From Acidimicrobiales bacterium (lineage in GTDB: Bacteria; Actinomycetota; Acidimicrobiia; Acidimicrobiales; AC-14): a DNA stretch of 64,000 nt. Below the pieces are notes generated by a model. That model saw nothing but the letters and a program-made list of their open reading frames with translations. It did not search any database and was not told where the DNA came from. Positions 8,297-25,920 of this stretch are shown piece by piece. The stretch lies in NCBI GenBank assembly GCA_025463925.1, contig JAODBK010000046.1, forward strand, positions 1 through 64,000. Reading direction: 5' to 3'. Each line of letters opens with the position of its first letter. Positions within the stretch are counted from its first letter, which is position 1. The position numbers and the translations under genes were made by a program.

Positions 8297-8307
8297 CTGT
8301 TCCTCTT

Positions 8308-8787: not shown

Positions 8788-8807
8788 CAGGCTCCGTTTG
8801 CCGTCGA

Positions 8808-8833
8808 CCGTATAATGACATTGCAAACCATTA
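8808..8833 (-). promoter_or_regulatory. Shared operator element, copy F (cupin-dehydrogenase unit)
   Basis: On the minus strand TAATGG is followed after exactly 13 bases by TATACGG; read as an inverted repeat it is TAATGG-N9-TCATTA. A perfect TTGACA lies at 8870-8865, 37 bases upstream of the element start. The element ends 21 bases before the cupin ATG. Five further copies with identical spacing occur in this locus. Binding by the adjacent IclR-family protein is inferred. Confidence 0.72.
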
Positions 8834-8874
8834 CCTGACCCACGCTCGCACAGGACCACTTCGCTGTCAACGGT

Positions 8875-9687: not shown

Positions 9688-9736
9688 GGTGCTCCCTTCA
9701 TGGACGGGGCGCACCACCGCGCCACCTGCGAGCAGG

Positions 9737-9800
9737 TTGACATCCGGACCCCTTGACGTCGACGATGGGACAGTTAATGGTTTGGCAAGACAGTATATGG
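9737..9800 (+). promoter_or_regulatory. Promoter with shared operator, copy A (selenoprotein unit)
   Basis: TTGACA at 9737-9742 is a perfect -35 hexamer. The operator TAATGG (9775-9780), 13 bases, TATATGG (9794-9800) starts 38 bases after the start of TTGACA. The element ends 18 bases before the ATG at 9818, just ahead of the ribosome-binding site. It lies in the gap shared with the divergent IclR gene, so autoregulation is plausible. Confidence 0.72.
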
Positions 9801-9817
9801 CTAGGAGGATGAAGCCC

Positions 9818-10363
9818 ATGGCGTCGGTGAAGGTGTACTCCCCCCGGCCTGTTCAGTTCGCGGAACCTGAAGGCGAGGCCGTCGCCGCACCTGAACGGCA
9901 CTCCCTGGTGGGCGCCGTGGTCGGCATCGTCGACAACGGCAAGATGCTCAAGCTGGGCGAGGCGATCGAGCGCCGGCTTCTCGCACTGGGAGCGGCAGAG
10001 GTCCGCCGGTTCCGAGCGCCGCGCTACACGGATCTGGCGACGGCCGAGTTCCTCGACGACATCGCCGCCAACGTCGCGGGCGCGGTCACCGGTCTCGGCA
10101 ATTGAGGTAGCTGCACGGCGTGGAGTTGCCACGCCACAGTTGAACTGGCCCGCCGGGGGATCGCGGCGCCGACGTTGGTCATCGAGTCGTTCCGAGCTTG
10201 GGGAGAAGCGGCCACCAAGAGCTTCGGTGGCGGCATCGAAACCGTGTTCGTCCTCCGCGAGGACGTCGATTTCGTGACCGGTGATCCACTCCAGGCGGAG
10301 GCGGACCGGGTCGCCCGCGCCGTGCTCGGTCTGCCAATCAGTGAGGGCGCAACGCATGCTTGA
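9818..10363 (+). CDS. UGSC-family selenoprotein (in-frame TGA read as selenocysteine)
   Basis: The frame runs from the ATG at 9818 (AGGAGG at 9803-9808) to a TGA at 10103-10105. It continues in the same frame, without another stop, to the TGA at 10361-10363. Read through, the product has 181 residues with selenocysteine at position 96 in the sequence GLGN-U-G-S-C-TAWSCH. The part after the TGA looks like normal protein (TVELARRGIAAPTLVIESF, then DFVTGDPLQAEADRVARAVL). U-G-S-C is the signature of a selenoprotein family first predicted in marine metagenomes; its biochemistry is unknown to me. A stem-loop immediately after the TGA fits a bacterial SECIS. The stop overlaps the start of the next gene. 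Automatic annotation would give a 95-residue stump and a 62-residue orphan. The selenocysteine machinery (selA, selB, selC) is not in the window. Confidence 0.85.
10109..10141 (+). ncRNA. SECIS-like stem-loop directing selenocysteine insertion
   Basis: The inner stem GGCGTGG (10117-10123) pairs perfectly with CCACGCC (10129-10135) around the loop AGTTG, with G as the second loop base. A lower stem, AGCTG (10109-10113) with CAGTT (10137-10141), is separated by a small internal loop. The apical loop starts 18 bases after the TGA. Bacterial SECIS elements have a short apical loop with a G near its 5' side about 16-37 bases after the UGA, so both geometry and position fit. It lies inside the coding sequence, as in bacteria. 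Confidence 0.8.
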
Positions 10364-11378
10364 CGAACTCGATCTTCCCGAGGACCTGGCCGACGAGATG
10401 TTCTTCGAGCGTGGATGGACTGACGGTATGGCCGTGCGGCTGCCCACCACGGACCGCGTGGATGAGTTCATCGCACGATCGGGTCTCGATCGCGATCTCG
10501 TGATCGGACCGGTGCCGCCGTCGAACGGGATCGCCACGGTCGAGAACATCGCCGTGAACGCGCTGATGGCCGGTTGCCGACCTGAGCACCTGAAGATTGT
10601 CACTGCCGCAATGACGGCGATGCTTCAGGAGAAGTTCAACCTCTACGTGGTCCAATGCACCACGAATCCGGTAACGCCTCTCACGATCGTGAATGGACCC
10701 GCTCGCATCGACGGCGGAATGAATTTCGGTCGGGGGGCACTGGGCCCGGGCCGCCACTGGAACGGTGCTATCGGCCGGGCCGTTCGCCTGGCGATGGGCA
10801 ATCTCGGGGGCTCGTTCGACGAGAACGTCGATATGGCGACACATGGAAACCCGCTGAAGTTCAGCTGCTGCCTCGCTGAAGCGGAGGAAGAGAGCCCTTG
10901 GGATCCGCTTCATGTTGCGCTCGGTTACTCGCCGACCGACAGCGTGGTCACCACGGCTGCCGTCGAGGGGCTCATCGACATCGTTCCGTCCTACGGCAAC
11001 ACGCAGGCGAAGCATCTCATCGACCACATCGGACGCGCGATGCGCACCATCGGCACTTGCTACTACTGGTCGCAAGGAAACCCGGTCGTAATCCTGAATC
11101 CGACCCATGCACACATCCTCGACAACGAAGGCATCGGACGAGCGCAGCTGCAGGAGGTCCTCTTCCAGGAAGCTCGCGTCGCGCTCGACACCATGCCGCT
11201 CGGGAACATCCCGGTCGGCGACTGGAAAGTCGTCGACGAGCACGCACTGGGCTACGCGCGTCCCGAGGATCTCTACATCGTCGTCGCGGGCCAGACCGGT
11301 GGCCACCACACTCTTTACGCGATGGGCTTCGCGCTCAGCTACGCGACGAGCTCGATCGTCCCGTCTGCGATCGGTTGA
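10356..11378 (+). CDS. Conserved hypothetical protein paired with the UGSC selenoprotein
   Basis: This 340-residue soluble protein starts at ATG 10356, overlapping the last codons of the selenoprotein gene, so the two are translationally coupled. I do not recognise a named domain. Visible features are a Gly-rich stretch (NGPARIDGGMNFGRGALGPG), a Cys pair in KFSCCLAEAEEES, further single Cys residues (AGCRPEHL, VVQCTTNP, GTCYYW), a His-Asp rich segment (NPTHAHILDNEGIG) and a C-terminal GQTGGHHTLYAMGF. There is no signal peptide or membrane helix. The coupling suggests a complex or consecutive reactions with the selenoprotein, perhaps a redox reaction; that is inference. Confidence 0.8.
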   Translation: MLDELDLPEDLADEMFFERGWTDGMAVRLPTTDRVDEFIARSGLDRDLVIGPVPPSNGIATVENIAVNALMAGCRPEHLKIVTAAMTAMLQEKFNLYVVQCTTNPVTPLTIVNGPARIDGGMNFGRGALGPGRHWNGAIGRAVRLAMGNLGGSFDENVDMATHGNPLKFSCCLAEAEEESPWDPLHVALGYSPTDSVVTTAAVEGLIDIVPSYGNTQAKHLIDHIGRAMRTIGTCYYWSQGNPVVILNPTHAHILDNEGIGRAQLQEVLFQEARVALDTMPLGNIPVGDWKVVDEHALGYARPEDLYIVVAGQTGGHHTLYAMGFALSYATSSIVPSAIG

Positions 11379-11442
11379 CAAGCGAAGCCACGCCCGCGCA
11401 GAATGGGACGGCCAGGTAATGGCTTGAGTCACCATTATATGG
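11375..11442 (+). promoter_or_regulatory. Promoter with shared operator, copy B (AtuA operon)
   Basis: TTGACA at 11375-11380 and a possible -10 CAGAAT (11399-11404, spacer 18) precede the operator. The operator is TAATGG (11417-11422), 13 bases, TATATGG (11436-11442). The inverted repeat TAATGG-N9-CCATTA is perfect here. The element ends 34 bases before the AtuA ATG. Confidence 0.75.
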
Positions 11443-11476
11443 ACTAGTACTCAGACGGCAGCCAGGGAGCGGCTTG

Positions 11477-12835: not shown

Positions 12836-12846
12836 TGGGAGGGAAC

Positions 12847-13176
12847 GTGGCCGTCAAGCGCGTATCGGTGCGTGAGATCGCGTGCGCCCGTGCGGGAGAC
12901 AAGGGCGATGTGAGCAATGTGGTGGTCGTGCCCTACGAAGCGGCCGGCTACGAATTCCTCCGTGAGGAGCTTACGGTCGAGCGTGTGCGCGAGCACTTCG
13001 GGGAACTGGTGGTCGGCGACATCGTCCGCTACGAGTTGCCAGGCATCCAGACCCTCAATTTCGTGATGACGGGTGCGCTGGCCGGTGGCGTTACTCGTTC
13101 GATCTGGCTCGACGCGCATGGCAAGTCGCGCGCTTCGTTGATGTTGACGCTCGAGCTCGACGGCTGGCCGGCTTGA
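12847..13176 (+). CDS. AtuA-like C-terminal domain protein, encoded separately
   Basis: This 109-residue protein has the motif ACARAGDKGDVSNVVVVPY, the start of the domain that usually forms the C-terminus of AtuA-like proteins. GTG 12847 is preceded by GGAGGG. An ATG at 12835 overlapping the atuA stop is an alternative start that would add four residues. Separation from AtuA suggests the two polypeptides form one complex. Its role is unknown beyond this association. Confidence 0.82.
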   Translation: MAVKRVSVREIACARAGDKGDVSNVVVVPYEAAGYEFLREELTVERVREHFGELVVGDIVRYELPGIQTLNFVMTGALAGGVTRSIWLDAHGKSRASLMLTLELDGWPA

Positions 13177-13183
13177 GAGGGAG

Positions 13184-14395
13184 ATGACTGTGTCCGACTT
13201 CATGGCCACAACGCCCATTGTGGACAGCGACAGCCACGTCACTGAGCCGCCCGATCTGTGGACGTCGCGCGTCGCCAAGAAGTGGGGCGACGAGGTGCCT
13301 CACCTCGAGCTGGATGAGGCGATCGGGGAGATGCGCTGGCGGGTCGGGCAGACCACGCTGAACGAAGAGGCGAAGTTCACCATGGCGGGTTGGCGCGACT
13401 TCCCGCCGTCACATCCGCCCTCTCTGGCCGATGCCGACCCTGCCGGGTGGGACCCGACGGCCCGTCTCGAACGCATGGACGAGTACGGCATGTGGGCTCA
13501 GGTTCTGTACCCGAACATCATCGCATTCTCCACGCACGCCTTCCTCGGTATGAGCGATCCAAAGCTGGCGCTCGCGTGCGTGTCTGCCTACAACGACTTC
13601 CTCGCCGAGTTCGCCGACTGCGACCGGCAACGGTTGATCCCGATCATGATGTTGCCGTTCTGGGATGTCGAGGCCAGCTACGCCGAGCTCGAGCGGGCAA
13701 CCGACCTCGGCCACAAGGGCGTCATCTTCGCTGCCCACTTCGACAAGGTGGGCCTGCCTCCCATTTGGCATGACCACTGGAGTCGACTGCTTTCGATGGT
13801 CGAGGAACGCGGCCTCTCGGTGAACTTCCACATCGGGTTCTCGGACATGACGAAGGCGGAGCAGGCCGAGCGTACCGAGGCCAGCGGTGACGACCACGCG
13901 CGGATCACGAGCGTCGCCATGCTGGGCAACGCCCGCGCCATCGCTGATGTGATCTGCAAAGGCGTCTGCCATCGCCATCCCGGGCTCAACTTCGTCTCCG
14001 TCGAGAGCGGCGCAGGGTGGTTGCTCTACCTGTTGGAGTCCCTCGACTGGCATTGGAAGAGCTACGGGGGAATGCGCGATCGTCCCGAGCTCGAGCTACC
14101 GAGCGTCTACTTCCGCCGCCAGGTCTACGGTTCGTTTTGGTTCGAGGAAGAGTCACTCCGTCGAGTGATCGGCGCGCTCCCCGACAACATCATGTTCGAG
14201 ACGGACTTCCCGCACCCGACCAGCCTCTCGCCGGGCCCAGCCTCGAGCTCTGGGAACCCGCGGAAGATGGCGGAGGCGGCGCTCGCGGGCATGGACGAGA
14301 AAATCGTCCGGAAGGTGTTCTACGAGACGGCGGCCAGGCTGTACCACCTCGACGTGTCCTCGGCTCGGGCGCTGGTGACGTCGGCGGACAGTTGA
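13184..14395 (+). CDS. Amidohydrolase-family (PF04909-type) metal-dependent hydrolase, copy 1
   Basis: The protein has 403 residues with a TIM-barrel amidohydrolase-2 layout. An N-terminal metal loop (VDSDSHVTEP) is followed by central HIGFSD and HPGLNFVSVESG, and by the late Asp in ETDFPHPTSL. Members of this family (ACMSD and gamma-resorcylate decarboxylase relatives) perform hydrolysis or non-oxidative decarboxylation. The ATG follows GAGAGGGAG. A paralogue with the same start (DSHVTEPPDLWTSR) lies at 22606 in the third unit of the same regulon. The two probably handle related intermediates or formed by local duplication. Confidence 0.85.
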   Translation: MTVSDFMATTPIVDSDSHVTEPPDLWTSRVAKKWGDEVPHLELDEAIGEMRWRVGQTTLNEEAKFTMAGWRDFPPSHPPSLADADPAGWDPTARLERMDEYGMWAQVLYPNIIAFSTHAFLGMSDPKLALACVSAYNDFLAEFADCDRQRLIPIMMLPFWDVEASYAELERATDLGHKGVIFAAHFDKVGLPPIWHDHWSRLLSMVEERGLSVNFHIGFSDMTKAEQAERTEASGDDHARITSVAMLGNARAIADVICKGVCHRHPGLNFVSVESGAGWLLYLLESLDWHWKSYGGMRDRPELELPSVYFRRQVYGSFWFEEESLRRVIGALPDNIMFETDFPHPTSLSPGPASSSGNPRKMAEAALAGMDEKIVRKVFYETAARLYHLDVSSARALVTSADS

Positions 14396-14940
14396 ACGAG
14401 TCGGTGGTCGACGGCGTCGATGCGAGTGAAACGGATGCGTACGAAGCCGCCCGTCAGCACCTCATCGCAACCCGCGGCCAGGTCGCGCTGCCATTCGAGC
14501 TGTTGTTGCGAGTACCCCAGCTGTGCACGCGCGTCGCTGATCTCGGGGAGGTCATCCGGTTCCGAGGCCTGCTGCCTGACCGGCTGCGGGAGACGGCCAT
14601 TCTCGCGACAGCGCGTGAGGTCCGGTGCCGATACGAGTTCGACAGTCACCTGCCGATCGCCCGATCGGCCGGCGTTGCCGAGGCGACCATCGCGCTGGCC
14701 AGCGGGGCTGACGCCGACGCACCGGTGGACGAGTCACTCGTCGTGTCCTTCGTTCATGAACTGCTCCAGCGCCGGGAGGTTGGCGAGGCGACCCTCGTCG
14801 GCCTGGGTGCGGTGCTCTCGGAGCCCGAGCTCGTCGAGCTCTGTGTCACCGTCGGCTATTACGCGCTGCTCGCCGGCGTCGTCAACGTCTTCGCCGTCGA
14901 TCAGGCGGAGAACATGGATCAGGAAGGGGCAGGGCAATGA
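14392..14940 (+). CDS. Carboxymuconolactone decarboxylase-like (CMD fold) protein, copy 1
   Basis: The protein has 182 residues. The conserved core LRETAILATAREVRCRYEFDSHLPIARSAGV matches the CMD/AhpD superfamily, in which a Glu-xx-His pair acts at the active site. The CxxC of AhpD peroxidase-type members is absent. The TTG start at 14392 overlaps the stop of the amidohydrolase gene (TTGA); GTG 14404 is an alternative. A second CMD-like gene occurs at 25336. In this locus it may decarboxylate or isomerise a lactone- or ketoacid-type intermediate; that is inference. Confidence 0.72.
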   Translation: MNESVVDGVDASETDAYEAARQHLIATRGQVALPFELLLRVPQLCTRVADLGEVIRFRGLLPDRLRETAILATAREVRCRYEFDSHLPIARSAGVAEATIALASGADADAPVDESLVVSFVHELLQRREVGEATLVGLGAVLSEPELVELCVTVGYYALLAGVVNVFAVDQAENMDQEGAGQ

Positions 14941-15218
14941 CGGAACCGCAGGACGCGGGCGATCCGCCCTCTTCGGCCGCTCTGACGTCGATCGCAGCGT
15001 CGTTGCGCGCCGACGGCTACCGCATGCACGTCAGCGAACCGCAACCATCTCGGGTGCGGGTCATGGTTGAAGCACTCCCAGACGCATGCGAGGAATGTCT
15101 CGTTCCCAAGGCGATCATGACTTCGATCATCGAGAGCGCCTTGGAGGGCGCTGGCATCGCACCGTCGGTCGTCGAACTCCTGTATCCCGGCGAACGTGCG
15201 GAGGTGGCGGATGCCTGA
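14937..15218 (+). CDS. Small conserved-looking hypothetical protein
   Basis: This 93-residue protein starts at an ATG overlapping the preceding stop (ATGA). The sequence has a compact alpha/beta look: ALTSIAASLRADGYRMHVSE, then RVRVMVEALPDACEECLVPK with a CEEC motif, then a helix IIESALEGAGI. The CxxC could bind metal or be redox-active. The next gene's ATG lies inside its 3' end. I do not recognise a family. Tight coupling to the CMD-like and CoA-transferase genes supports a role in the pathway. Confidence 0.7.
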   Translation: MTEPQDAGDPPSSAALTSIAASLRADGYRMHVSEPQPSRVRVMVEALPDACEECLVPKAIMTSIIESALEGAGIAPSVVELLYPGERAEVADA

Positions 15219-16422
15219 TCTGGGCGTTCTCCCCGATGCCGCCTTTCACGGGCTGAAGGTCGTCGAGATCGCGCAGCTGATCGCCGGACCGTTGTCGGGC
15301 AGCCTGCTCGCGGATCTCGGCGCCGACGTGGTCCATGTGGAGGATCCCGGCTCCGGCGATCCGCACCGTGCGACCGGTGTCGACAAGGACGGCGTCCATC
15401 TCTGGTGGAAGGTGTCGGGGCGCAACAAGCGATCAGTGACGCTGGATCTGCGCAGCGAAGAAGGGCAGGAGATCGCGCGGCGACTCGTCCGGTGGGCTGA
15501 CGTTGTCATTACCAACTTCCGGCCAGAGACACTCGAGAACTGGAAAATGGACTGGCCCAGTCTCCACGAGGTGAACCCGAAGCTGATCATGCTGCAGGTC
15601 ACCGGCTTCGGCGCCAACAGCAGCCGCCGAAACAGTCGGGGTTACGGCAAGGTCGGCGAGGCGATGAGTGGCGTCGTGTATCTCACCGGCTTTCCGGACG
15701 GCCCGCCGGTCCACACCGGCTTCTCACATGCTGACTCGACCACCGGCTTGTTCGGGGCCTTCGCGATCGCGGCCGCTCTCTTCCGTCGTTCGACCGACCC
15801 GGACTTTCAGGGCGAGTGGATCGACATGGCGTTGTTCGAGGCCTTGTACCGCCTTTGCGAGTGGCAGGTGACGATGTATGACCAGCTCGGTGTCGTGCCG
15901 ACACGGGCCGGCAACCAGTTGGCCAACGCCCCAGCGGCGGTGGTCAACACCTACCTCTCGGTCGACGACCAGTGGGTGACCGTGACGACGGGAACTGCAA
16001 AGGCGGTGCTCGACGTGGCCAAGCTGCTGGGCGAACCGGTTGAGGACTACGACAGCACCCAAAAGCAGAACGACCGCCGCGATCGGTTGGATGAGCTCCT
16101 CCGCCAGTTCGTCGCCGAGCGCACATGCGACGATGCCCTGGAAACGATGCGCAAAACCGGAGTCGTGGCATCCCGCATTTACAACGTCGAGGACATCCTC
16201 GCCGACCAGACGTACGCCGAGCGAGAAGAGATCGTTGTGGTTGACGACTCGGACCTCGGCCCAGTGCGCATGCCGGCGGCCCTGCCCAAGATGGCGAATC
16301 ACGGCGGGCAGGTGTGGCGAAGCGGTCCGAAGCTCGGAGAGGACAACGACCTCGTCTACAAGAGCTACCTCGGGCTGACGGACGAGGAGTACGAGGCGTT
16401 GCAGAAGGACTCGGTCATCTAG
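15211..16422 (+). CDS. CaiB/BaiF-type (family III) CoA-transferase
   Basis: The protein has 403 residues. Family III features are GLKVVEIAQLIAGPLSGSLLADLGADVVHVEDP at the N-terminus, the KRSVTLDL segment, and the catalytic Asp in HADSTTGLFGAFAIAAALF. These enzymes move CoA between carboxylic acids through an aspartyl-CoA intermediate. The ATG at 15211 has GAGG seven bases upstream and overlaps the previous gene by eight bases. It likely activates a carboxylic acid intermediate so that the DUF35/thiolase-like and crotonase-like enzymes can act. Confidence 0.85.
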   Translation: MPDLGVLPDAAFHGLKVVEIAQLIAGPLSGSLLADLGADVVHVEDPGSGDPHRATGVDKDGVHLWWKVSGRNKRSVTLDLRSEEGQEIARRLVRWADVVITNFRPETLENWKMDWPSLHEVNPKLIMLQVTGFGANSSRRNSRGYGKVGEAMSGVVYLTGFPDGPPVHTGFSHADSTTGLFGAFAIAAALFRRSTDPDFQGEWIDMALFEALYRLCEWQVTMYDQLGVVPTRAGNQLANAPAAVVNTYLSVDDQWVTVTTGTAKAVLDVAKLLGEPVEDYDSTQKQNDRRDRLDELLRQFVAERTCDDALETMRKTGVVASRIYNVEDILADQTYAEREEIVVVDDSDLGPVRMPAALPKMANHGGQVWRSGPKLGEDNDLVYKSYLGLTDEEYEALQKDSVI

Positions 16423-16437
16423 TGGCTCCCCACTAGC
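16420..16437. other. Small perfect hairpin over the CoA-transferase stop codon
   Basis: CTAGTGG-CTCC-CCACTAG is a perfect seven-base inverted repeat that includes the TAG stop codon. It lies inside the operon, just before the SDR gene, and may affect translation of the next gene or mRNA stability. Confidence 0.4.
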
Positions 16438-16442
16438 CGGCC

Positions 16443-17174
16443 TTGGATCTTCAACTGCGTGGCAAGAGGGCCCTCGTCACTGGCGGGAGCCGGGGGATCG
16501 GCCGGGCAACCGCGCGAGGATTCGGATTCGAGGGGTGCGCGGTCGCGCTGTGCGCTCGCAGCGGCGACGAGCTGGCGATCGCGACATCCGAGCTCGCACG
16601 AGAGACCGGAGCGAAATTCGTCGGCATTCCGTGCGACACCCACGACGACGACTCGATCCGTGCCTTTGTCACCGCGGCCGCCGCAGAACTCGGTGGTGTC
16701 GACATCCTCGTGAACGCGGCCGCCCGCGTCGGCGGCACCGCGCCCGAGGACTTCGACTCCGTCAGTGACGCCCTCCTGATGGGGGACTTCGAGGAGAAGG
16801 CGGTGGGCTACTTCCGGTGCTCGCGCGCCGTCGTGCCGTACATGCGCAACGAAGGGTGGGGTCGCATCGTCAACATTGCGGGCTTGTCGGCACGGCGACC
16901 GGGGTCGGCCATGAGCACGCCGGCGCGGAACGCGGCTGTGGTGGCTATGACGATCGCCATGGCGAACTCGCTCGGGCGCTATGGCATCGGGGTCAATGCG
17001 GTTCACCCAGGCCGAACGATGACAGAATCGGTCGGGGAGCGCCTGCCAGAAGGTACGGCGACCACACGGTTCGTCTCGCCCGATGAAGTGGCGAGCGTGG
17101 TGATCTTCCTGAGCTCACCGCCCGCGGCGGGCATCTCGGGTGAGGCGATCGCGGTCACGCGGGAATCGGCGTGA
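16443..17174 (+). CDS. Short-chain dehydrogenase-like protein lacking the catalytic Tyr-Lys pair
   Basis: This 243-residue Rossmann protein starts at a TTG (16443). The cofactor motif TGGSRGIG and the NAA motif (LVNAAARVGG) are intact. However, the segment that should read YxxxK is STPARNAAVVAM, so the Tyr and Lys needed for classical SDR hydride transfer are Thr and Asn. The Ser region (NIAGLSARRPG) is present. It may bind NAD(P)(H) without classical dehydrogenase chemistry, or catalyse another reaction. Its stop overlaps the start of the DUF35 gene. Confidence 0.8.
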   Translation: MDLQLRGKRALVTGGSRGIGRATARGFGFEGCAVALCARSGDELAIATSELARETGAKFVGIPCDTHDDDSIRAFVTAAAAELGGVDILVNAAARVGGTAPEDFDSVSDALLMGDFEEKAVGYFRCSRAVVPYMRNEGWGRIVNIAGLSARRPGSAMSTPARNAAVVAMTIAMANSLGRYGIGVNAVHPGRTMTESVGERLPEGTATTRFVSPDEVASVVIFLSSPPAAGISGEAIAVTRESA

Positions 17175-17620
17175 ACGGGATCACCGACGCCGCGGTGTTC
17201 GAATCGTTTCCGGGCGTGGCGATCGACCACGACAACATCGAGCATTACCGCGGGATCCTGCAACGTCGGCTGCTCGTCAACCGATGCGCCGACTGTGGGA
17301 CGTGGCACGAGCCCGCCCGGTCGCGCTGCCCGGCGTGCTGGTCCACCCGGGTCGAGCCCACGAAGATCAGTGGCCGGGGCGTCATCGCCCTCTTCACGGT
17401 CCTGCATCATGGTCCCCCCGCGACGGGCATCGACTACCAAGAGGGGCATCCCGTCGCGGCCGTCGAACTCGCCGAGCAGCCGGGCCTGCGCTTTACCGCG
17501 ACCATCGTCGACTGCAAGCGCGAGACTTTGCGCATCGGGCTGCCGGTTGAACTGACTTGGATCGAGCGAGTCGGTGTGCCGGTACCGGCTTTTCGCCCGG
17601 CCGAACCCCGAAACGCATGA
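17171..17620 (+). CDS. DUF35-type OB-fold/zinc-ribbon protein, acyl-CoA-binding partner of the thiolase-like gene
   Basis: The protein has 149 residues: an N-terminal helix, a zinc ribbon CADCGTWHEPARSRCPAC (two CxxC pairs), then an OB-fold (GRGVIALFTVLHHGPP ... AAVELAEQPGLRF). Such proteins form complexes with thiolase-like proteins such as the Ltp2 steroid-side-chain retro-aldolase, where they bind the acyl-CoA. GTG 17171 overlaps the SDR stop, and the stop overlaps the thiolase-like ATG, which fits a stoichiometric complex. Confidence 0.83.
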   Translation: MNGITDAAVFESFPGVAIDHDNIEHYRGILQRRLLVNRCADCGTWHEPARSRCPACWSTRVEPTKISGRGVIALFTVLHHGPPATGIDYQEGHPVAAVELAEQPGLRFTATIVDCKRETLRIGLPVELTWIERVGVPVPAFRPAEPRNA

Positions 17621-18780
17621 CGCTTCCGATCAAGGATCGGGTGGCCATTGCCGGATTGGGGTCTACGCCGTTCTCTCGCGACGCCGGCCGGGCCGCCGGC
17701 GCGATGGTGCTCGACGCCTGCGTCGGTGCCGTTCGCGATGCCGGTCTCACCGCGAGCGACATCGATGGCTTGTGCGGCTCGAACGTCGTACCGGCCAGAT
17801 ACGTGCAGGGCGCGCTCGGCATTCCGGAGTGCACCTGGCACGCCAACCTCACCATTCCTTTCCAGCACCAGATCATCGAGTCCATGAACGCCATCCACGC
17901 CGGCATGTGCTCAACGGTGCTGGCGTACCACGGCGTCTACCGTGCCTCGGGCACATCTCGCGCAGCATCCGCCGACCCGTTTCGCGCGCGCTACGGCGCC
18001 GGTCCGAACGTGCTCTTCCAGACGCCCGACACCTTCGAAGGCGCGGTGGGACATTCCCCGTGGGCCCGGCGGTACCTGGACAAGTACGGGGTCGGACGCG
18101 AAGTCTTCGGAAAGGTCGCCATCAATAATCGGTCCAATGCCGTCCTGAACGAGCGGGCTGCCATGCGGCAGCCGCTCACGATGGAGGACTATCTGTCGGC
18201 GCGCCTCGTGCGCGAACCGCTGACGCTCTATGACATGGACCTTCCGGTCGACGGCGCTGACGCCTTCATCATCACCAGCGCGGAGCGAGCCCGTGACCTG
18301 CCTCACCGTCCGGTGCTGATCCACGCCGCTGCCCTCGGGCAGAATGACCGGCCGTTCTCTGCACAGATGCTCGACGTCGATTGCACTGGCCAGCAGATCG
18401 CGATTCGACAGCTGTGGCGTCATAGCGACGTGCGACTCGGGGATGTCGACGTCTTCTTCCCGTACGACGGCTTCTCCATCATCACCGTGCGGTGGTTCGA
18501 GACCGCTGGGTACTGTGACGACGGCGAGGCGAACGCGTTCTTCGACGCGCACTGGGAGACGTCCACCGACCGGATCCTCATCGACGGACGCGTCGCGGTG
18601 AATACGCATGGCGGCAGCATGTCCGAGGGTGCGACGCAGGGATCCGGTCACTTCCGCGAAGCGGCGGCGCAGCTGCGCGGCGAGGCAGGCGTTCGACAGG
18701 TTCCCAACGCAAAGCACGCGTTGGTGACGCCTGGCGGATTCTTCTTCAATGCCGGGGCTGTGATGCTCCGTACCGAGTAG
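17617..18780 (+). CDS. Thiolase-superfamily (SCP2-thiolase/Ltp2-like) protein
   Basis: The protein has 387 residues with the thiolase fold (VAIAGLGSTPFSRDAGRAAGAMVLDACVGAVRDAGL at the N-terminus). The usual nucleophilic Cys in the first half is not evident, and the C-terminal segment reads VNTHGGSMSEGATQGSGHF, the non-condensing Ltp2/lipid-transfer type. Together with the DUF35 protein it most likely performs a retro-aldol or other acyl-CoA C-C cleavage rather than thiolysis. The ATG at 17617 overlaps the preceding stop. Confidence 0.8.
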   Translation: MTLPIKDRVAIAGLGSTPFSRDAGRAAGAMVLDACVGAVRDAGLTASDIDGLCGSNVVPARYVQGALGIPECTWHANLTIPFQHQIIESMNAIHAGMCSTVLAYHGVYRASGTSRAASADPFRARYGAGPNVLFQTPDTFEGAVGHSPWARRYLDKYGVGREVFGKVAINNRSNAVLNERAAMRQPLTMEDYLSARLVREPLTLYDMDLPVDGADAFIITSAERARDLPHRPVLIHAAALGQNDRPFSAQMLDVDCTGQQIAIRQLWRHSDVRLGDVDVFFPYDGFSIITVRWFETAGYCDDGEANAFFDAHWETSTDRILIDGRVAVNTHGGSMSEGATQGSGHFREAAAQLRGEAGVRQVPNAKHALVTPGGFFFNAGAVMLRTE

Positions 18781-18809
18781 GACGACTTCGGTCCCACAAA
18801 GGGAGAAAT

Positions 18810-19580
18810 GTGCCGCCGATCTTCGACGAATACTCGACACGTTATGAGCATGTCGCCATGCGCCGCGATGCCGACGGCATTCTCGAGCTGCGCTTGCACA
18901 CCGCCGGCGGCCCTCTCATTTGGGGCGCCGGGCCGCACACCGAGCTCGGTTACGCGTTCACTGACGTCGGCAGTGATCCCGAAAATCGGGTCGTGATCCT
19001 GACCGGTACCGGTGACCGATTTATCGCTGCCATCGATTCAACGTGGATCGGACCGATGTCGCCCAAGAAATGGGACACGATCTACGCGCACGGAAAGCGG
19101 TTGCTCCAACGGTTGCTCGACATCGAAGTGCCTGTCATCGGCGCCGTCAACGGGCCCGCAAGCGTGCACGCGGAGCTGGCGGTGTTGTCTGACATCGTCC
19201 TCGCCGCCGATCACGCGTACTTCTCCGATGCGCCGCATTTCCGACGCGGGACGGTGCCCGGCGACGGTGTCCACGTGGTCTGGCCCCTTCTGCTCGGGCC
19301 GAATCGTGGTCGGTACTTCCTCCTCACCGGCCAACGGCTGTCGTCGGCGGACGCCGCAGAGCTCGGAGTCGTGAGCGAAGTGTTGCCGGCGGACCGACTT
19401 CTCGACCGTGCCTGGGAACTCGCTCGGCAACTGTCGGCCCAGCCCGATACGACGCTTCGGTACACGCGTGAAGCCGTGACACTGCCGATCAAGCGGCTCC
19501 TGCTCGACAACCTCGGGTACGGCCTCGCGCTCGAAGGGCTGGGCGCATATGCCTCGTGGCCGACGACCTCCGGATCCTGA
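18810..19580 (+). CDS. Crotonase-family retro-Claisenase, 6-oxocamphor-hydrolase-like
   Basis: The 256-residue protein closely follows 6-oxocamphor hydrolase (OCH), a crotonase that cleaves the C-C bond of cyclic beta-diketones. Shared segments are VVILTGTGDRF, LLDIEVPVIGAVNGP, LSDIVLAA, PHFRRGTVPGDGVHVVWP and NRGRYFLLTGQ. From memory, the OCH active-site residues are Trp40, His45, His122, His145, Asp154 and Glu244. Here W38, H43, H120, H143, D152 and E242 occupy the same positions with a constant offset of two. GTG 18810 has AGGGAG upstream. It is the last gene of the AtuA unit and the best clue to a cyclic beta-diketone intermediate. Confidence 0.82.
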   Translation: MPPIFDEYSTRYEHVAMRRDADGILELRLHTAGGPLIWGAGPHTELGYAFTDVGSDPENRVVILTGTGDRFIAAIDSTWIGPMSPKKWDTIYAHGKRLLQRLLDIEVPVIGAVNGPASVHAELAVLSDIVLAADHAYFSDAPHFRRGTVPGDGVHVVWPLLLGPNRGRYFLLTGQRLSSADAAELGVVSEVLPADRLLDRAWELARQLSAQPDTTLRYTREAVTLPIKRLLLDNLGYGLALEGLGAYASWPTTSGS

Positions 19581-19588
19581 CCGCACCC

Positions 19589-19651
19589 TTGACAGCCGGA
19601 CCGACCATTGGCAGTATTGGCCACTAAATGGTGGGGGACACCATTATATGA
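19589..19651 (+). promoter_or_regulatory. Promoter with shared operator, copy C (NitT/TauT-type importer unit)
   Basis: TTGACA (19589-19594), a 17-base spacer and CAGTAT (19612-19617) form a good promoter. The operator AAATGG (19626-19631), 13 bases, TATATGA (19645-19651) follows around the expected transcription start. Confidence 0.75.
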
Positions 19652-19709
19652 ACAGTCTGAGTTCGAGGAGGCAGGCGCAGGTAGCCGACTCCCGCTCCGG
19701 AAGGTGGCC

Positions 19710-20603
19710 GTGTCGATCGAGTACCGCCGGTCGGTCGAGAAGCGAAGGCGCGCCTCTGGCCGCGCAATGCGTGCGCCGCGGTCGGCGGACCCCTCGCAAA
19801 GCGTCGCTCCCGATCAGCTGATGCCCTCTGCCATGCGCGTGTCGGTCGATGGCGTGACCCACGCCTTCCGCGTCGGCAAGCCGGTTCTCGCGGATGTCTC
19901 GCTCGACGTCAAAAAGGGTGAGTTCGTCTCGATCGTTGGACCGAGCGGCGGCGGAAAGAGCACCTTGCTGAACATCGTGGCCGGTGTCCTCCAACCGGCG
20001 CAGGGCCGGGTTCTCTACAACGGCACCGAGATTCATGCGCCGAACCGCGAGGTCGGCTATGTGACGCAGGCAGACCGGCTCTTGTACTGGAGAACGGTCG
20101 AGCAGAACGTGCGTCTGCCCTTGCAGTTCCGCGGAGTACGAAAGGACGCGGCGGCCGAGTCCGTCGCACGGGTGATCAAACTGGTTGGCCTGGAAGGGTA
20201 TGAGCGGTACTACCCGAGCCAGTTGTCGGGGGGTATGCGCCAACGTGTCAACCTCGCTCGCAGCCTCGTCTACGAGCCTGACACGCTCCTGATGGACGAA
20301 CCGTTCGGCAGCCTCGATGCGTATCTCCGCGTCCGCATGCAGAAGGAACTGTCAGACATCGTGGAGCGACTCGCGCCGACGGTTGTGTTCGTGACGCATG
20401 ACCTGTCGGAAGCCGTAGCGCTCTCTGATCGGATCCTCGTTCTCAGCGGGCGACCGGCGCGGGTGACGTCGACCGTGGAGGTTGACATCCCACGGCCGCG
20501 AGACGTGATCGCGGTGCGCTCATCCGAGGAGATGCGCGAGTTGCTCGGGGTCCTGTGGTCTGCCGTCGAGTTGGGTTATGACACCGAAGAGAGAGAGAGC
20601 TGA
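19710..20603 (+). CDS. ABC transporter ATP-binding protein, NitT/TauT type
   Basis: The protein has 297 residues from GTG 19710, which has GGAAGG upstream; an ATG near 19831 is an alternative that would remove a 40-residue Arg-rich N-terminal tail. Walker A GPSGGGKS, the Q-loop (VTQADRL), signature LSGGMRQR, Walker B LLMDEP and the H-loop VTHDLSEAV are all intact. It resembles SsuB/TauB, which drive uptake of sulfonates, nitrate or small organic molecules. It is followed by its binding lipoprotein and its permease. Confidence 0.85.
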   Translation: MSIEYRRSVEKRRRASGRAMRAPRSADPSQSVAPDQLMPSAMRVSVDGVTHAFRVGKPVLADVSLDVKKGEFVSIVGPSGGGKSTLLNIVAGVLQPAQGRVLYNGTEIHAPNREVGYVTQADRLLYWRTVEQNVRLPLQFRGVRKDAAAESVARVIKLVGLEGYERYYPSQLSGGMRQRVNLARSLVYEPDTLLMDEPFGSLDAYLRVRMQKELSDIVERLAPTVVFVTHDLSEAVALSDRILVLSGRPARVTSTVEVDIPRPRDVIAVRSSEEMRELLGVLWSAVELGYDTEERES

Positions 20604-20604
20604 C

Positions 20605-21726
20605 ATGCAAGAACGCGGGTGGAGAGAGCATCGCAGTCGGTCACGATGGTCGGTCGCGCTCGCGGTCGTCCTGTTGGCTATGGCCCTTGCCGCATGCGGG
20701 TCCAGCAAGTCCAAAATCGCCGCTCCCAACGCGACGACCGGACCGGCCACGACGCTCCAGCCCGTGAGCATCAAGATGGTCATCGGTCAGTCGACGCCGC
20801 CGCTCTACCCGATTTACATCGCGCAGGACAAGGGTTTCTTCGCCAAGTTTGGTTTGAAGGTCGACGTCTCGATCGCCGGTAGCGACGCACTCGGCCTGGC
20901 CCAGTTGGTGAGCGGCAATGCAGATGTCGCTGACATGGGCACCTCGACCCTTGTGATTGCCAAGGCGACCCAAGGCACCTCGTTGGTGTCGGCGATGTCG
21001 CCGTACTCCGGCCCGGGCCTGTTCACCGTGCTGAGGAAGCCGGTTGCCGACAAGCTGGGCGTCGCCGCAGACGGGCCGCTCGACGCGCGGGTGAAGGCCC
21101 TCAAGGGATTGGCCATCGCCGTGCCGAGCAAGGCCAGCGCGTTGACCACGGTGCTCGACAAGGTCACCAGTGCGGCCGGCGTGTCGTACAAGCAGGTCAT
21201 CATGCAGGCGCCGGCGATGATCGCAGCCTTCCAGCGTGGCGACATCGATGGGGTTCAGATGGTGTCGCCGGTCGTGGAGACGGCAATCCAGAAGAACGGC
21301 GGCGTGATGTGGCTGAACGGGCTCAAGGGTGACATGGCCGTCGGTGGCGTCACCGAGACCTACCCCTTCATGTCGGTCACGATTCCCCGGACGTACCTCG
21401 ACAAGAACTCGGATGCCGCCGTCCGGCTTACCGCAGCGCTGCTCTACACGTCGGAATGGATCAAGAACAATGCGACCGACGCCGAGGCGACGGCGAAGGC
21501 TCGTTGGGGCGCGACGATCGGCGATCTGTGGGACCAGGTCTGGGCAAACAACTACCCCGGCTACATCAAGCAGCCGGTTCCGTCCGATTCCGGCCTCAAG
21601 CAGATCATCGCCACCTTGCCTAGCGACGTGGTGTCGGCCGACAAGGCGGCACGCCTGACCGCCACGGAGTTCCTCGACACCAGCCTTCTCGACAAGGCGA
21701 AGAAGTTGGCTGCGGACACCAAGTGA
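20605..21726 (+). CDS. ABC transporter substrate-binding lipoprotein, NitT/TauT (NMT1/SsuA) type
   Basis: This 373-residue lipoprotein has a signal peptide ending in the lipobox LAAC (MALAACGSSKS). The binding fold has the family hallmark PPLYPIYIAQDKGFFAKFGL followed by GNADVADMGTSTLVIA. It captures the substrate outside the membrane for the adjacent NBD and permease. ATG 20605 follows a GA-rich stretch (GAGAGAGAGAG). A strong hairpin follows the stop, before the permease gene. Confidence 0.87.
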   Translation: MQERGWREHRSRSRWSVALAVVLLAMALAACGSSKSKIAAPNATTGPATTLQPVSIKMVIGQSTPPLYPIYIAQDKGFFAKFGLKVDVSIAGSDALGLAQLVSGNADVADMGTSTLVIAKATQGTSLVSAMSPYSGPGLFTVLRKPVADKLGVAADGPLDARVKALKGLAIAVPSKASALTTVLDKVTSAAGVSYKQVIMQAPAMIAAFQRGDIDGVQMVSPVVETAIQKNGGVMWLNGLKGDMAVGGVTETYPFMSVTIPRTYLDKNSDAAVRLTAALLYTSEWIKNNATDAEATAKARWGATIGDLWDQVWANNYPGYIKQPVPSDSGLKQIIATLPSDVVSADKAARLTATEFLDTSLLDKAKKLAADTK

Positions 21727-21747
21727 CGGATCGAGTACTCGTGGCCC

Positions 21748-21773
21748 GCCCGGGAGCAGTGCAGCTCCCGGGC
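21748..21773 (+). other. Intra-operon hairpin after the binding-protein gene
   Basis: GCCCGGGAGC (21748-21757) pairs perfectly with GCTCCCGGGC (21764-21773) around AGTGCA. It has no T-run and lies between the lipoprotein and permease genes, a position where hairpins commonly stabilise the upstream mRNA to give excess binding protein. Confidence 0.65.
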
Positions 21774-21796
21774 CGTCACGGCGGGGCAGGAGCGCA

Positions 21797-22600
21797 GTGA
21801 GCGCAACCGAAAGTGCCGGGCGGCGACGCTACCGCTTCATCATCTCGCAGATCATCGTTTGGACGGTCCTTCTCGGACTCTGGCAGCTCTCGACGTACCT
21901 CTTCGATTCCCAGAACAACACGAGCGGACCGACCCTCGTCGCCCGACGAGTCGTGAAGTGGCAGCGAGATGGTGTTCTTTGGTCGGCGACCTGGTACACG
22001 CTGAAGGCGACCCTGTTCGGTTTCGGTTTCGGCACGGTGGGCGGAGCCGTCAGCGGCTTCGTCCTGGGTCGGAGCCGACGCCTCGGGCCGTTGCTCAACC
22101 CGGTCGCGATCGCTCTCTACTCCGTTCCGAAGATCACCCTCGGGCCACTGTTTGTGATCTGGTTCGGCATTGGCCTTCAGATGAAGACGATGATGGCCGC
22201 ATCGCTCGTCTTCTTCTTCGTGTTCTTCACGACTTACAACGGTACGAGACGGATTGATGAAGATCTCGTATTGCACGCCCGCATCATGGGAGCGAGCAAG
22301 TTCCAAATCCTGCGGCGCATCGTCCTTCCGCAAGCGGCCGTTTGGGTGTTCACCGGGATTCGCTTGTCGCTCCCGTACGCCCTGATCGGCGCCGTCGTCG
22401 GAGAATTCATCGCCTCGACCGATGGATTGGGCTACCTCGCCAACACGTCAAGTCAGGTCTTCGACACCACCGGGGTGTTCACCGCTCTGACGGTCCTCAC
22501 CGTGCTGGCGCTGCTGCTCAACGGCGTTGTCATGATCTTCGAGCGTCTGCTCATGCCGTGGGAGTCGCGAGAAGAGTCACTTCCCGTGCCCGCGGCCTGA
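21797..22600 (+). CDS. ABC transporter permease, NitT/TauT type
   Basis: The 267-residue protein has about six membrane helices. The cytoplasmic coupling motif EDLVLHARIMGASKFQILRRIVLP is the EAA loop of BPD_transp_1 permeases, and the core pattern VPKITLGPLFVIWFGIGLQMK is typical of SsuC/TauC. GTG 21797 follows AGGAGC. Only one permease gene is present, so it should act as a homodimer. Confidence 0.87.
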   Translation: MSATESAGRRRYRFIISQIIVWTVLLGLWQLSTYLFDSQNNTSGPTLVARRVVKWQRDGVLWSATWYTLKATLFGFGFGTVGGAVSGFVLGRSRRLGPLLNPVAIALYSVPKITLGPLFVIWFGIGLQMKTMMAASLVFFFVFFTTYNGTRRIDEDLVLHARIMGASKFQILRRIVLPQAAVWVFTGIRLSLPYALIGAVVGEFIASTDGLGYLANTSSQVFDTTGVFTALTVLTVLALLLNGVVMIFERLLMPWESREESLPVPAA

Positions 22601-22605
22601 TCGCA

Positions 22606-23769
22606 ATGGCGCTCGTCGACGAAATTCCGGTCATCGACTGCGACAGCCATGTCACGGAGCCGCCCGACTTGTGGACCTCACGTCTGTCGGGGCGTTGGCG
22701 AGATGGCGTCCCGCATGTCATCTGGGACGAGCGACTGAACGAACACCGGTGGCTGGTCGGTGATCGGAAGCTCAACGGCGTGGCCTCGTTCGCGATGGCC
22801 GGGTGGCACGAGTATTCGCCGGCCCACCCCCCGTCACTCGAGGAGGCAGACCCGGGCGCCCATGACCCGCGGGCGCGGCTGAGCCGGCTCGACGAGTACG
22901 GGGTCCACGCGCAGGTCATCTACCCCAACCTGTTGGGCTTCTACGTGCCGGCCTTCCTCGATCTCGAGCCTGCGCTCGCACTCGACTGCGTGCGGGCCTA
23001 CAACGACTTCCTCGCTGAGTTCTGCTCAGTTGATCCGAAACGTCTCGTCCCGCTGATGTTCCTGCCGTTCTGGGACCTCGATGCCTCGCTTGCGGAGATG
23101 AAGCGAGCGCTCGACCTCGGTCACAAGGGCCTCGTGTTCGGGGTCGACTTCGCGAAGGTCGGCCTCCCACCGATCACCGACCCCACGTGGGACCCCCTGC
23201 TGTCGGCTGCCGAGGATGCCGAGCTTTCGATCAACTTCCACATCGGGTTCAGCCAAGTCACCGAAGACGAGCTCAGGTCGCAGATCCGCCTACAGGACCG
23301 CGTGGAGTTCGTGAAGAACAGCGCGTTGATGATGCTCGGCAATGCCCGAGCGGTCGCCGATGTCGTGACATCAGACATCTGCGCGCGCCACCCCGGGCTG
23401 AACTTCGTTTCCGTCGAGAGCGGCTGTGGTTGGCTGCTGTTCCTGCTCGAGGCGCTCGACTGGCAGTGGGAGAACACCGGGGCGCATCTCGCCTTTCCCG
23501 AGCGTGAATTTCCGAGCGTGTACTTCCGGCGCCAGGTCTACGGCTCGTTCTGGTTCGAACGTGACTCCATGCGTCGAACGATCGGGGCCCTGCCTGACAA
23601 CGTGATGTTCGAGACCGACTTTCCGCATCCGACGAGCTTGTGCCCCGGGCCGGCGTCTTCCGCCGAGAACCCACGAGACGCGATCGAGCGCGCGCTCGGT
23701 GACCTGCCGCGAGACGTGGTGCAGAAGGTGCTTCACGACACCGCGGCCCGCCTGTACCACTTGGAATGA
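22606..23769 (+). CDS. Amidohydrolase-family metal-dependent hydrolase, copy 2
   Basis: The protein has 387 residues and is a clear paralogue of the gene at 13184. It has the same metal loop (DCDSHVTEPPDLWTSR), the same HIGFS and HPGLNFVSVESG segments, and an identical block VYFRRQVYGSFWFE followed by ETDFPHPTSL. ATG 22606 lies five bases after the permease stop. It is embedded in the transport unit, whereas copy 1 is in the AtuA unit. The two may act on free and activated forms or on stereoisomers; that is inference. Confidence 0.86.
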   Translation: MALVDEIPVIDCDSHVTEPPDLWTSRLSGRWRDGVPHVIWDERLNEHRWLVGDRKLNGVASFAMAGWHEYSPAHPPSLEEADPGAHDPRARLSRLDEYGVHAQVIYPNLLGFYVPAFLDLEPALALDCVRAYNDFLAEFCSVDPKRLVPLMFLPFWDLDASLAEMKRALDLGHKGLVFGVDFAKVGLPPITDPTWDPLLSAAEDAELSINFHIGFSQVTEDELRSQIRLQDRVEFVKNSALMMLGNARAVADVVTSDICARHPGLNFVSVESGCGWLLFLLEALDWQWENTGAHLAFPEREFPSVYFRRQVYGSFWFERDSMRRTIGALPDNVMFETDFPHPTSLCPGPASSAENPRDAIERALGDLPRDVVQKVLHDTAARLYHLE

Positions 23770-23791
23770 CCGCAGCCGCGAAGGTGCGTCG

Positions 23792-25339
23792 ATGTCGATA
23801 GGGGAGCTTCTTCTTCGCGATGTGCTCTTCCGAGACGTGGATCTGTACGCCCGCGACCCAGCCGTCATTTCGGATGACGTGCAGCTCAATTGGGAAGAGC
23901 TCGCGTCGCGGGTGATGCGGCTGGCGAATCAATTGCGCTCACAAGGCATCGGTGTCGGCGACCGGGTGGCAGCGATGCAGGGAAACGGATTCGAACTGGT
24001 GGAGATTGCCTATGCCGCCGCGGTGCTGGGCGCGGTACTCGTTCCGGTCAGCCCGAGACTCGCGCAGCCCGAGGTCGAGTTTCTCAAGAACGACGCCGAG
24101 GTTCGTTTCGCATTCGTCGAGCGCGACCACAAGGCGCGCGGTGTCTTCTCAGACGTTGCGGTCGTAGAGACCCGCAGCAAGGACTACGACGAGTTCCGGG
24201 ACGCCGGCGACGCGTCGGAGCCACCTGAAGTGGCAACGCCGGACACTGCGGTCTTGCAGCTCTACACGTCGGGCACGACCGGACGGCCCAAAGGCGCAGT
24301 CGTGACGCAGCGAGCAATGATCCAAAACGGGCTCACGGTGCAGCTGTCACAGGGACTCACGCATGCCGATGTGTTCCTTTCGGCGACACCACTTACTCAT
24401 GCTGCCGCCGGCACGCGGATCTTCAGCCTCGGTCTCGACGGCATCGCTCATGTCATTCTCAGCAAGTTCTCCTCCGAACGTTTCTTCGAAGCAGTGGCGA
24501 GGCATCGCGTGACGACGAGCATCGTGGTTCCGACGATGCTCGCCGATCTCCTCGACGCGCCGACGCGAGCCAATGCCGACCTCTCCAGCCTTCGGCTTCT
24601 CGTCTATGGGGCCGCGCCGACCTCGCCAGCCCTGGTCGAGCGGGCCATTGCCGAGCTCCAATGTGGTCTCTTGCATGGTTACGGCCTCACGGAGACCTGT
24701 CCGGCACTCACGGCACTGACTCCCGACGATCACCGACGCTTCGCAGTGGACCCAGGGCTACGGCATCGACTCCAGTCGATCGGACGACCGGTACCCAGCG
24801 TGCGTATTCGCATTGTCGACGGCGCCGGCGATGACCTTCCTCCCGGCGAACCGGGCGAGCTGATGGTCCGATCAACCAAGACGATGTCGGCGTACTGGCA
24901 CAACGCTGAAGCGACGGCGAAGGCATTCAACGATGGCTGGTTCGCCACCGGTGATGTGGGCTATCGCGACACCGACGGCTACATCTTCCTGGTTGAGCGG
25001 AAGAACGACATGATCATCTCCGGCGGGATGAACATCTACCCCTCCGAAATCGAGCGCGTCCTCCTCCTCGACGGCGCGGTGCGGGAAGCTGCCGTTGTTG
25101 GCGTTCCTGCGGAGCGCTGGGGAGAACGACCTGTGGCCTTCGTCAGTTTCAAGGAGGGCGTGGATCCCGATACGGACCGACTTACGTCGTTGTGTCGTGA
25201 ACATCTTGCTGGTTACAAGCTGCCGACGAGGATCGAAGTGATCAACACGCTGCCCCGAAACGAGACCGGCAAGGTCCTCAAGCAGGCGTTGCGTGAACGC
25301 GCCGCGATGGACTCGGCAGTGACAGTGCCCCGGCAGTGA
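23792..25339 (+). CDS. Acyl-CoA synthetase (AMP-dependent ligase)
   Basis: The 515-residue ANL enzyme has the phosphate-binding loop YTSGTTGRPKGAV, GYGLTETCP, the hinge DGWFATGDVGYRDTDGY and the catalytic Lys in NETGKVLKQ. It converts a carboxylic acid to its CoA thioester using ATP. ATG 23792 has GAAGG upstream. Its stop overlaps the GTG of the next gene. Together with the CoA-transferase it points to CoA-bound intermediates. Confidence 0.87.
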   Translation: MSIGELLLRDVLFRDVDLYARDPAVISDDVQLNWEELASRVMRLANQLRSQGIGVGDRVAAMQGNGFELVEIAYAAAVLGAVLVPVSPRLAQPEVEFLKNDAEVRFAFVERDHKARGVFSDVAVVETRSKDYDEFRDAGDASEPPEVATPDTAVLQLYTSGTTGRPKGAVVTQRAMIQNGLTVQLSQGLTHADVFLSATPLTHAAAGTRIFSLGLDGIAHVILSKFSSERFFEAVARHRVTTSIVVPTMLADLLDAPTRANADLSSLRLLVYGAAPTSPALVERAIAELQCGLLHGYGLTETCPALTALTPDDHRRFAVDPGLRHRLQSIGRPVPSVRIRIVDGAGDDLPPGEPGELMVRSTKTMSAYWHNAEATAKAFNDGWFATGDVGYRDTDGYIFLVERKNDMIISGGMNIYPSEIERVLLLDGAVREAAVVGVPAERWGERPVAFVSFKEGVDPDTDRLTSLCREHLAGYKLPTRIEVINTLPRNETGKVLKQALRERAAMDSAVTVPRQ

Positions 25340-25920
25340 GCGAGGCGAGAGTCCGGCGCTTGAGTCAAGCGGACGCCCTTGCCGCGGCGGAAGCGGCAGG
25401 GATTCCCGGGGCGGCGGCGAACCTCAGCTCCTTCCGGGTCCTGCTCCGACATCCTGGTCTCGCTCGAGTCATGAACGATCTCCTCGCGCTGCTCGCGCGC
25501 GACGCGCGGCTGGACTCGCGGTTGCGGGAGCTCGCGATCATGCGGATCGGCTGGCTCACGGAATCGGACTACGAGTGGACCCAGCATTGGCGTATCGCGC
25601 GCAAGCTCGGCGTGCCCGACGACGATCTCCTCGGGGTTCGGGACTGGAAGGCCTACGCCGGCTTCGGGCCGGCAGAGCGCGCCGTGCTCATGGCGGCCGA
25701 CGAGCTCGTGGTGGATGGTTCCATCACGGCCACGACATTTGGGGAATGCAGCGAAGCCTTGCAGGACGACGAGCTTGTCCTGCTCGAGCTGGTAGCCACC
25801 CTCAGCACGTGGCGGATGATCGCTTCGATTCTTCAGAGCCTCGATGTACCGCTCGAGGAAGGGGTCGACAGCTGGCCGCCGGACGGCCGCAGCCCTGCAG
25901 ATGTGAGCGTCGCCAACTGA
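25336..25920 (+). CDS. Carboxymuconolactone decarboxylase-like (CMD fold) protein, copy 2
   Basis: The protein has 194 residues. The core LRELAIMRIGWLTESDYEWTQHWRIARKLGV is the CMD signature with the YEWxxH pair and no CxxC, so it is not an AhpD-type peroxidase. GTG 25336 overlaps the ligase stop (GTGA). It ends the third unit of the regulon and is followed by a strong hairpin. It is a distant relative of the protein at 14392. Confidence 0.8.
   Translation: MSEARVRRLSQADALAAAEAAGIPGAAANLSSFRVLLRHPGLARVMNDLLALLARDARLDSRLRELAIMRIGWLTESDYEWTQHWRIARKLGVPDDDLLGVRDWKAYAGFGPAERAVLMAADELVVDGSITATTFGECSEALQDDELVLLELVATLSTWRMIASILQSLDVPLEEGVDSWPPDGRSPADVSVAN

Follow-up and report, generated by a model that had tools for sequence, protein, structure and literature searches.

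Does the gene at positions 18810-19580 of the window (the whole 64,000-nucleotide stretch of Acidimicrobiales DNA that was analysed) encode a hydrolase that opens beta-diketones by C-C cleavage, in the manner of 6-oxocamphor hydrolase (OCH), and, if so, what do its neighbours tell about the compound on which it acts? Very few C-C hydrolases of the OCH/ABDH family (ABDH being the beta-diketone hydrolase of Anabaena) have solved structures, and the related genes, which are widespread in bacteria and plasmids, are mostly annotated as enoyl-CoA hydratases. The open reading frame at the coordinates of the preliminary description is real (256 aa, with a GTG start and a ribosome-site-like run, AAGGGAG, shortly 5' of it), and it belongs to a run of same-strand genes, mostly separated by short gaps or overlapping, that extends from 9818 to 25920 and is composed as follows:

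9818..11378, + strand: UGSC-family gene and a 340-aa partner (from 10356), the first genes of the run
11474-12835, + strand: AtuA
12835-13176, + strand: AtuA ferredoxin-fold protein (AtuC)
13202..14395, + strand: ARO1, PF04909-type by Pfam, about 60% identical to ARO2
14392..14940, + strand: carboxymuconolactone-decarboxylase-like protein (CMD1)
15196..16422, + strand: CaiB/BaiF CoA-transferase (class III)
16443..17174, + strand: short-chain dehydrogenase (SDR), candidate for the ketone-forming step
17171..17620, + strand: DUF35/ChsH2-type zinc-ribbon and OB-fold protein
17617..18780, + strand: thiolase-like protein, Ltp2 type (steroid side-chain aldolase), with a YDGF motif (6ok1, E 6e-41)
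18810..19580, + strand: OCH/ABDH-type beta-diketone hydrolase
19608..22600, + strand: ABC importer (ATPase, NMT1-like binding protein, permease), directly after the OCH-type gene
22603..23769, + strand: ARO2, PF04909-type, candidate PtmU3/DitZ-like dinuclear oxygenase (start provisional)
23786..25339, + strand: AMP-binding acyl-CoA ligase (start provisional)
25336..25920, + strand: second CMD-like protein (CMD2), closing the tightly packed part of the run

Overlaps are found at UGSC/B, AtuA/AtuC, ARO1/CMD1, SDR/DUF35, DUF35/thiolase-like and ligase/CMD2, and the larger gaps measure 95, about 255 and some 70 bases. Beside the start of the run at 9818 lies an opposite-strand gene that we take to be IclR-like, and past 25920 a gap of 642 bases separates the run from a second transporter, of the ribose type, and from a DUF3500 gene. 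The OCH-type gene starts 29 bases after the thiolase-like one and, since the importer, ARO2, the AMP ligase and CMD2 come after it, occupies a mid-cluster position rather than, as had been proposed, the end of an AtuA operon (same-strand genes go on to at least 25920).

Some observations concern other members of the run. In the UGSC-family gene (9818-10363) an in-frame TGA (10103-10105) falls on the U of U-G-S-C, a motif whose family is described among known selenoproteins in PMC2398784. SelB and tRNA-Sec both score over cut-off in the same genome; a GGCGTGG/CCACGCC hairpin begins 12 bases past this TGA (the fold of the whole region having a z of only -1.1), and Rfam gave no match near it. The 340-aa partner (10356-11378) has no Pfam or PDB match, and homologues of it occur in 65 of the 148 genomes searched (own genome included), several of them near a UGSC-like gene. 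The DUF35 and Ltp2-type genes adjoin, with an overlap of 4 bp. Y279 of the Ltp2-type protein (17617-18780) aligns with the catalytic Y294 of the YDHF motif, and in the same motif alignment A335 stands for Y344 and G281 for H296 (the roles of Y294, H296 and Y344 are given for characterised aldolases in PMC12329534); of the residues found in the latter, this YDGF protein lacks the His/Cys as well as the second Tyr, which makes its reaction uncertain.

The resemblance to OCH had been proposed on account of six residues, and all of them (W38, H43, H120, H143, D152 and E242) are where they had been placed, in alignment with W40, H45, H122, H145, D154 and E244 of OCH. The claim that no insertions or deletions intervene holds as well, as the comparison with chain 1o8u has 0 gaps and 110 identities over the 205 columns from W38 to E242; the sole gap falls before W38, and the OCH numbering given for the residues agrees with that of the 1o8u chain, shifted by 2 throughout after this early gap. 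Against ABDH there is 1 gap between W38 and E242, and F occupies the position of W38. All six are present at once in 52 of the 87 aligned rows. Column 120 is H in 65 rows (52 of which carry the complete set) and G in 21 rows, either ordinary or sister ones, including 17 with the pattern I,S,G,E,D,Q. The sister row L003, from the same genome, retains H43, H143, D152 and E242 with G, not H, at column 120, so these four residues alone are no proof of an OCH-type enzyme; as 3q1t of M. avium is also reported with similar residues (PMC3584854), we regard H120 as the most diagnostic of the six. It is the six-residue set, and H120 above all, that separates OCH-type genes from enoyl-CoA hydratases.

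The affiliation suggested by these columns is borne out by sequence, structure and phylogeny. A phmmer search of the PDB returned ABDH (9.9e-81) and OCH (1.3e-75), matches far beyond chance, followed by an ordinary crotonase at 6.8e-22. The AlphaFold2 model (pLDDT 94.9) retrieved 1o8u (1.7e-34) and 2j5g (8.9e-34) with Foldseek, at TM scores of 0.92-0.97 to these two structures, and the next family at 1.8e-19; the VIA structure comparison superposed it on 1szo at 1.2 A over 249 residues (Z 39.5) and gave 2j5s a Z of 39.0, the first entry from outside the family reaching 31.4. Furthermore, the trees split the OCH/ABDH group together with the window protein from L003 and the ordinary crotonases, with supports of 100/99 in the first (52 of the 87 rows) and 99/98 in the second (39 chosen rows). 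An alignment against OCH and ordinary hydratases had been recommended in the preliminary description, and in it the protein sides with OCH/ABDH, the diagnostic residues being absent from the ordinary rows; a position among the ordinary enoyl-CoA hydratases, which had been named as the outcome that would speak against the reading, was recovered in neither tree.

These results bear directly on the notion that the gene encodes a CoA-dependent enoyl-CoA hydratase or isomerase of the ordinary kind, the function under which plasmid records list such genes. Such a function would agree with the Pfam ECH_1 match (3e-30), with the CoA-ester enzymes nearby and with the name of enoyl-CoA hydratase/isomerase family protein given to most of the plasmid homologues listed, but the protein falls far under all the NCBIfam hydratase cut-offs listed, it has H120 where ordinary rows show G and H143 where most of them show E, and both the trees and the structure comparison place it elsewhere. 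We consider this function highly improbable, and have set it aside on the cut-offs, trees, structure and residue columns.

The protein is a fresh member of an already known enzyme family, for which the label ‘6-oxocamphor-hydrolase-like’ is slightly too specific: the trees bear out an OCH/ABDH-type enzyme, and do not bear out a strict 6-oxocamphor hydrolase, since neither its position in the tree, which is not in the OCH clade, nor its pocket loop is that of OCH. A true 6-oxocamphor hydrolase engaged in camphor breakdown would be expected to keep the OCH residues, and it does keep all six, W38 (F in ABDH) included. Against this role, its identity of about 52% to OCH is equalled by about 52% to ABDH, and in the second tree it belongs to a five-row clade of its own (with L009, L099, L002 and L010; support 100/100), apart from OCH, which groups with L129 and L019 at 98/99. 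Within this clade, L009 is 77% identical (76% in the tree), and the own-genome paralogue L002 73%. Moreover, the loop motif S-W-[IV]-G-x-M-[ST]-P (residues T/S78 to P85, with T at 78 in the window protein), present in all five clade rows, replaces that of OCH; OCH and ABDH carry other residues there, and the pocket loop 77-83 of the window protein differs from both. As no P450 gene was matched within 6 kb of the OCH-type gene in the window either, we rate a camphor function as having very little chance of being correct. The separate clade and its private pocket loop make ‘beta-diketone hydrolase’, with no substrate named, a fair description and ‘6-oxocamphor hydrolase’ an unfair one, and from the loop common to the five rows it can be argued that the substrate is probably shared within the branch and is not camphor.

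OCH-type genes are uncommon among relatives (6 of 148 genomes at E <= 1e-50, and 9 of 395 genomes of the same class at E <= 1e-70 with alignment, the own genome included in both), and the family is wide, with 33 plasmid records. OCH and ABDH were the only solved family members with a named function in the PDB search, and the family may hold other chemistries.

We regard the window protein as very probably a crotonase-fold C-C hydrolase (retro-Claisenase). By analogy with these two enzymes, its conserved His/Asp/Glu set would activate a water molecule, which would attack a cyclic 1,3-diketone at one of its carbonyls; cleavage of the bond that separates the two carbonyls would yield a keto acid without the participation of coenzyme A. 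The analysis itself establishes the family, the fold, the set of catalytic residues and the order of the genes, while the hydrolysis of a diketone, its independence of CoA, the sequence of steps and the type of substrate are deduced. Upstream of this step, a ring substrate would probably be hydroxylated and then dehydrogenated to the 1,3-diketone; downstream, the acid product could be activated by the CoA ligase or CoA-transferase and its side chain cleaved by the DUF35/Ltp2-type pair. That the starting compound is cyclic and terpenoid-like is a suggestion to which we give somewhat less than an even chance.

Because the neighbouring genes handle CoA esters, the same fold might instead act on a CoA-bound beta-diketone. 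In keeping with this idea, the AMP ligase, CaiB and the Ltp2-type protein belong to the same gene run, and the own-genome paralogue in L089 is overlapped and directly followed by an AMP ligase ORF. OCH and ABDH, on the other hand, are both reported to work without CoA, so that we hold a CoA-ester C-C hydrolase to be unlikely, and favour cleavage of the free diketone.

Which partner gene would best indicate the substrate? The AtuA neighbourhood had been put forward as the strongest hint about the chemistry of the pathway, a view that the distribution of the two genes does not support. With the window AtuA as query (tblastn, E <= 1e-6), the loci holding an OCH-type gene yielded, besides the window, only the SAR86 loci L065, L066 and L068, in which AtuA and a distant OCH-type gene are about 8 kb apart. 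At E <= 1e-100 AtuA was found in 2 of the 99 genomes searched, namely the own genome and G065, and the latter has no OCH match at E <= 1e-50 (it is not among the six genomes with OCH). As close orthologues do not show the link and the two genes are found separately in relatives, AtuA was rejected as a pathway clue, and we infer that the PF04909 partner genes are a better one.

The association with PF04909 was assessed on 50 deduplicated OCH-type loci, over a distance of 6 kb. Before this count, 23 copies (L001-L003, L009, L093-L098 and L132-L144) were left out by name and rows more than 85% identical were merged (102 to 54); the 50 include at least one wrong row, as the H120 regular expression passed L128, in which column 120 is L. 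Some type of oxygenase was present at 21 loci and an SDR at 21. PF04909 genes were found near 7 loci, P450 near 7, luciferase-like genes near 9 and Rieske oxygenases near 8; in this set of 50, PF04909 is overall not commoner than P450, and rarer than the luciferase-like or Rieske types. All seven PF04909 loci (L089, L099, L145, L146, L147, L150 and the window) come from the class of the own genome, which supplies 14 rows of the locus list (the window, L089, L099, L100, L102, L103 and L145-L152), i.e. 7 of 14. The binomial p for this proportion, with the family chosen post hoc, is 0.0015 at a background of 0.14 (4 of 28 other own-genome crotonase hits) and 0.038 if the background is 0.25. In the own-genome comparison, the proportions with a PF04909 gene are 3 of 3 versus 4 of 28 (p 0.008), or, without the sister L003, 2 of 2 versus 5 of 29 (p 0.045), both comparisons having been picked after seeing the data.

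The arrangement of the pairs varies. In L145, which holds the 77% orthologue, an SDR (7252-8067) and a PF04909 gene ending at 9311 precede the OCH-type gene, which starts at 9308 (a 4-bp overlap), and a P450 gene (11789-13072) is also present about 1.7 kb downstream; at the locus of the own-genome paralogue, the OCH-type gene is followed first by an AMP ligase and, beyond it, by a PF04909 gene. The PF04909 gene of L099 and that of L150 are convergent with the OCH-type gene and do not share an operon with it. Searches of open-licence literature listed no paper that names an OCH-PF04909 pairing.

As for what the PF04909 proteins do, the best PDB matches of ARO2 are PtmU3 (6omp, 3.3e-32) and DitZ (8uyr, 2.7e-19), and Foldseek with its model, of middling confidence (pLDDT 76), returned DitZ and PtmU3 first, followed by an uncharacterised amidohydrolase and ACMSD. 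PtmU3 is described in PMC10127204 as a non-heme di-iron oxygenase that hydroxylates diterpenoid-CoA intermediates, and the metal ligands listed there (D-x-H, H, E and D-x-x-H) are aligned in 8 of the 8 PF04909 proteins compared, the N-terminal D-x-H falling outside the PtmU3 and DitZ segments used in the ligand alignment. On this evidence ARO1 and ARO2 are candidate amidohydrolase-related dinuclear oxygenases (AROs) for an O2-dependent hydroxylation; the idea that they are thioesterases or decarboxylases was dropped on the PtmU3 match and PMC10127204. A Pfam scan of 20 window ORFs found no Rieske ferredoxin partner, which AibH2 does have, and this counts against the oxygenase reading, other AROs having been defined partly through a partner of that kind (PMC10811679), although one is not known to be essential for PtmU3; according to PMC10811679, no features have been recognised that tell mono- from dinuclear sites.

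The oxygenase-dehydrogenase-OCH succession would then parallel that of camphor breakdown, with the PF04909 proteins in place of P450. We advance only tentatively, as a possibility that we think rather doubtful, that the close relatives share a P450-free ring-opening cassette in which a PtmU3/DitZ-like dinuclear oxygenase and an SDR would produce the ketone for cleavage by the OCH-type enzyme. If the pairing holds, AROs would gain a role in catabolism and a definite class of substrates on which they could be tested.

Several OCH-type loci from other replicons have contexts of their own. Those at L022:8961-12107 and L020:9992-11697 adjoin a BKACE beta-keto-acid cleavage gene (by Pfam in L020, by shared cluster in L022), and two further L022 ORFs are presumably acetoacetate CoA-transferase-like. 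On the plasmids L126 and L154, OCH-type genes lie near molybdenum hydroxylase (xanthine dehydrogenase family) genes, a context that suggests diketones derived from dearomatised rings. The match to the OCH-type gene L058:2930-3825 is split into two segments (56% and 69% identity), for which reason the gene is probably frame-shifted or mis-assembled.

In comparison with known systems, the window protein shares with OCH (1o8u, 1szo) the fold (Z 39.5), the six catalytic residues and the gap-free core, and differs from it in identity (52%), clade and gene neighbours, as well as in the pocket loop, where S77, W79, I80 and M83 replace F79..F82. Anabaena ABDH/alr4455 (2j5g, 2j5s) is the best sequence match and has the same fold (Z 39.0) and H, H, H, D, E set, but carries F for W38 and lies in a separate clade. 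With ordinary enoyl-CoA hydratases only the crotonase fold is held in common, the rows compared being devoid of the diagnostic residues at 38, 43, 120 and 143. Studies reportedly exist on a steroid ring-A beta-diketone hydrolase and on the curcumin enzyme CurH. The EchA15/3q1t-like crotonases, among which 3q1t is suggested to be beta-diketone hydrolase-like in the comparison of PMC3584854, resemble the window protein in H43, H143, D152 and E242 (as kept in L003), and depart from it by G at column 120 (in L003) and by an identity of 24-36%. Dihydrophloroglucinol cyclohydrolase likewise cleaves the ring of a cyclic 1,3-diketone by retro-Claisen hydrolysis, yet is Mn-dependent and belongs to another protein family, that of the cyclases (PMC10470551); in the phloroglucinol route described there, a BKACE enzyme acts after the retro-Claisen ring opening, and the L020/L022 pairing is reminiscent of this order. 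Lastly, L129 (Rhodococcus sp. 008 plasmid, 481-10762), where a homologue 66% identical to OCH is surrounded by P450, ferredoxin, SDR, AMP ligase, acyl-CoA dehydrogenase, zinc-ribbon and thiolase genes, has the appearance of a complete camphor-type cluster, and has several gene types in common with the window, following the same logic but with a P450.
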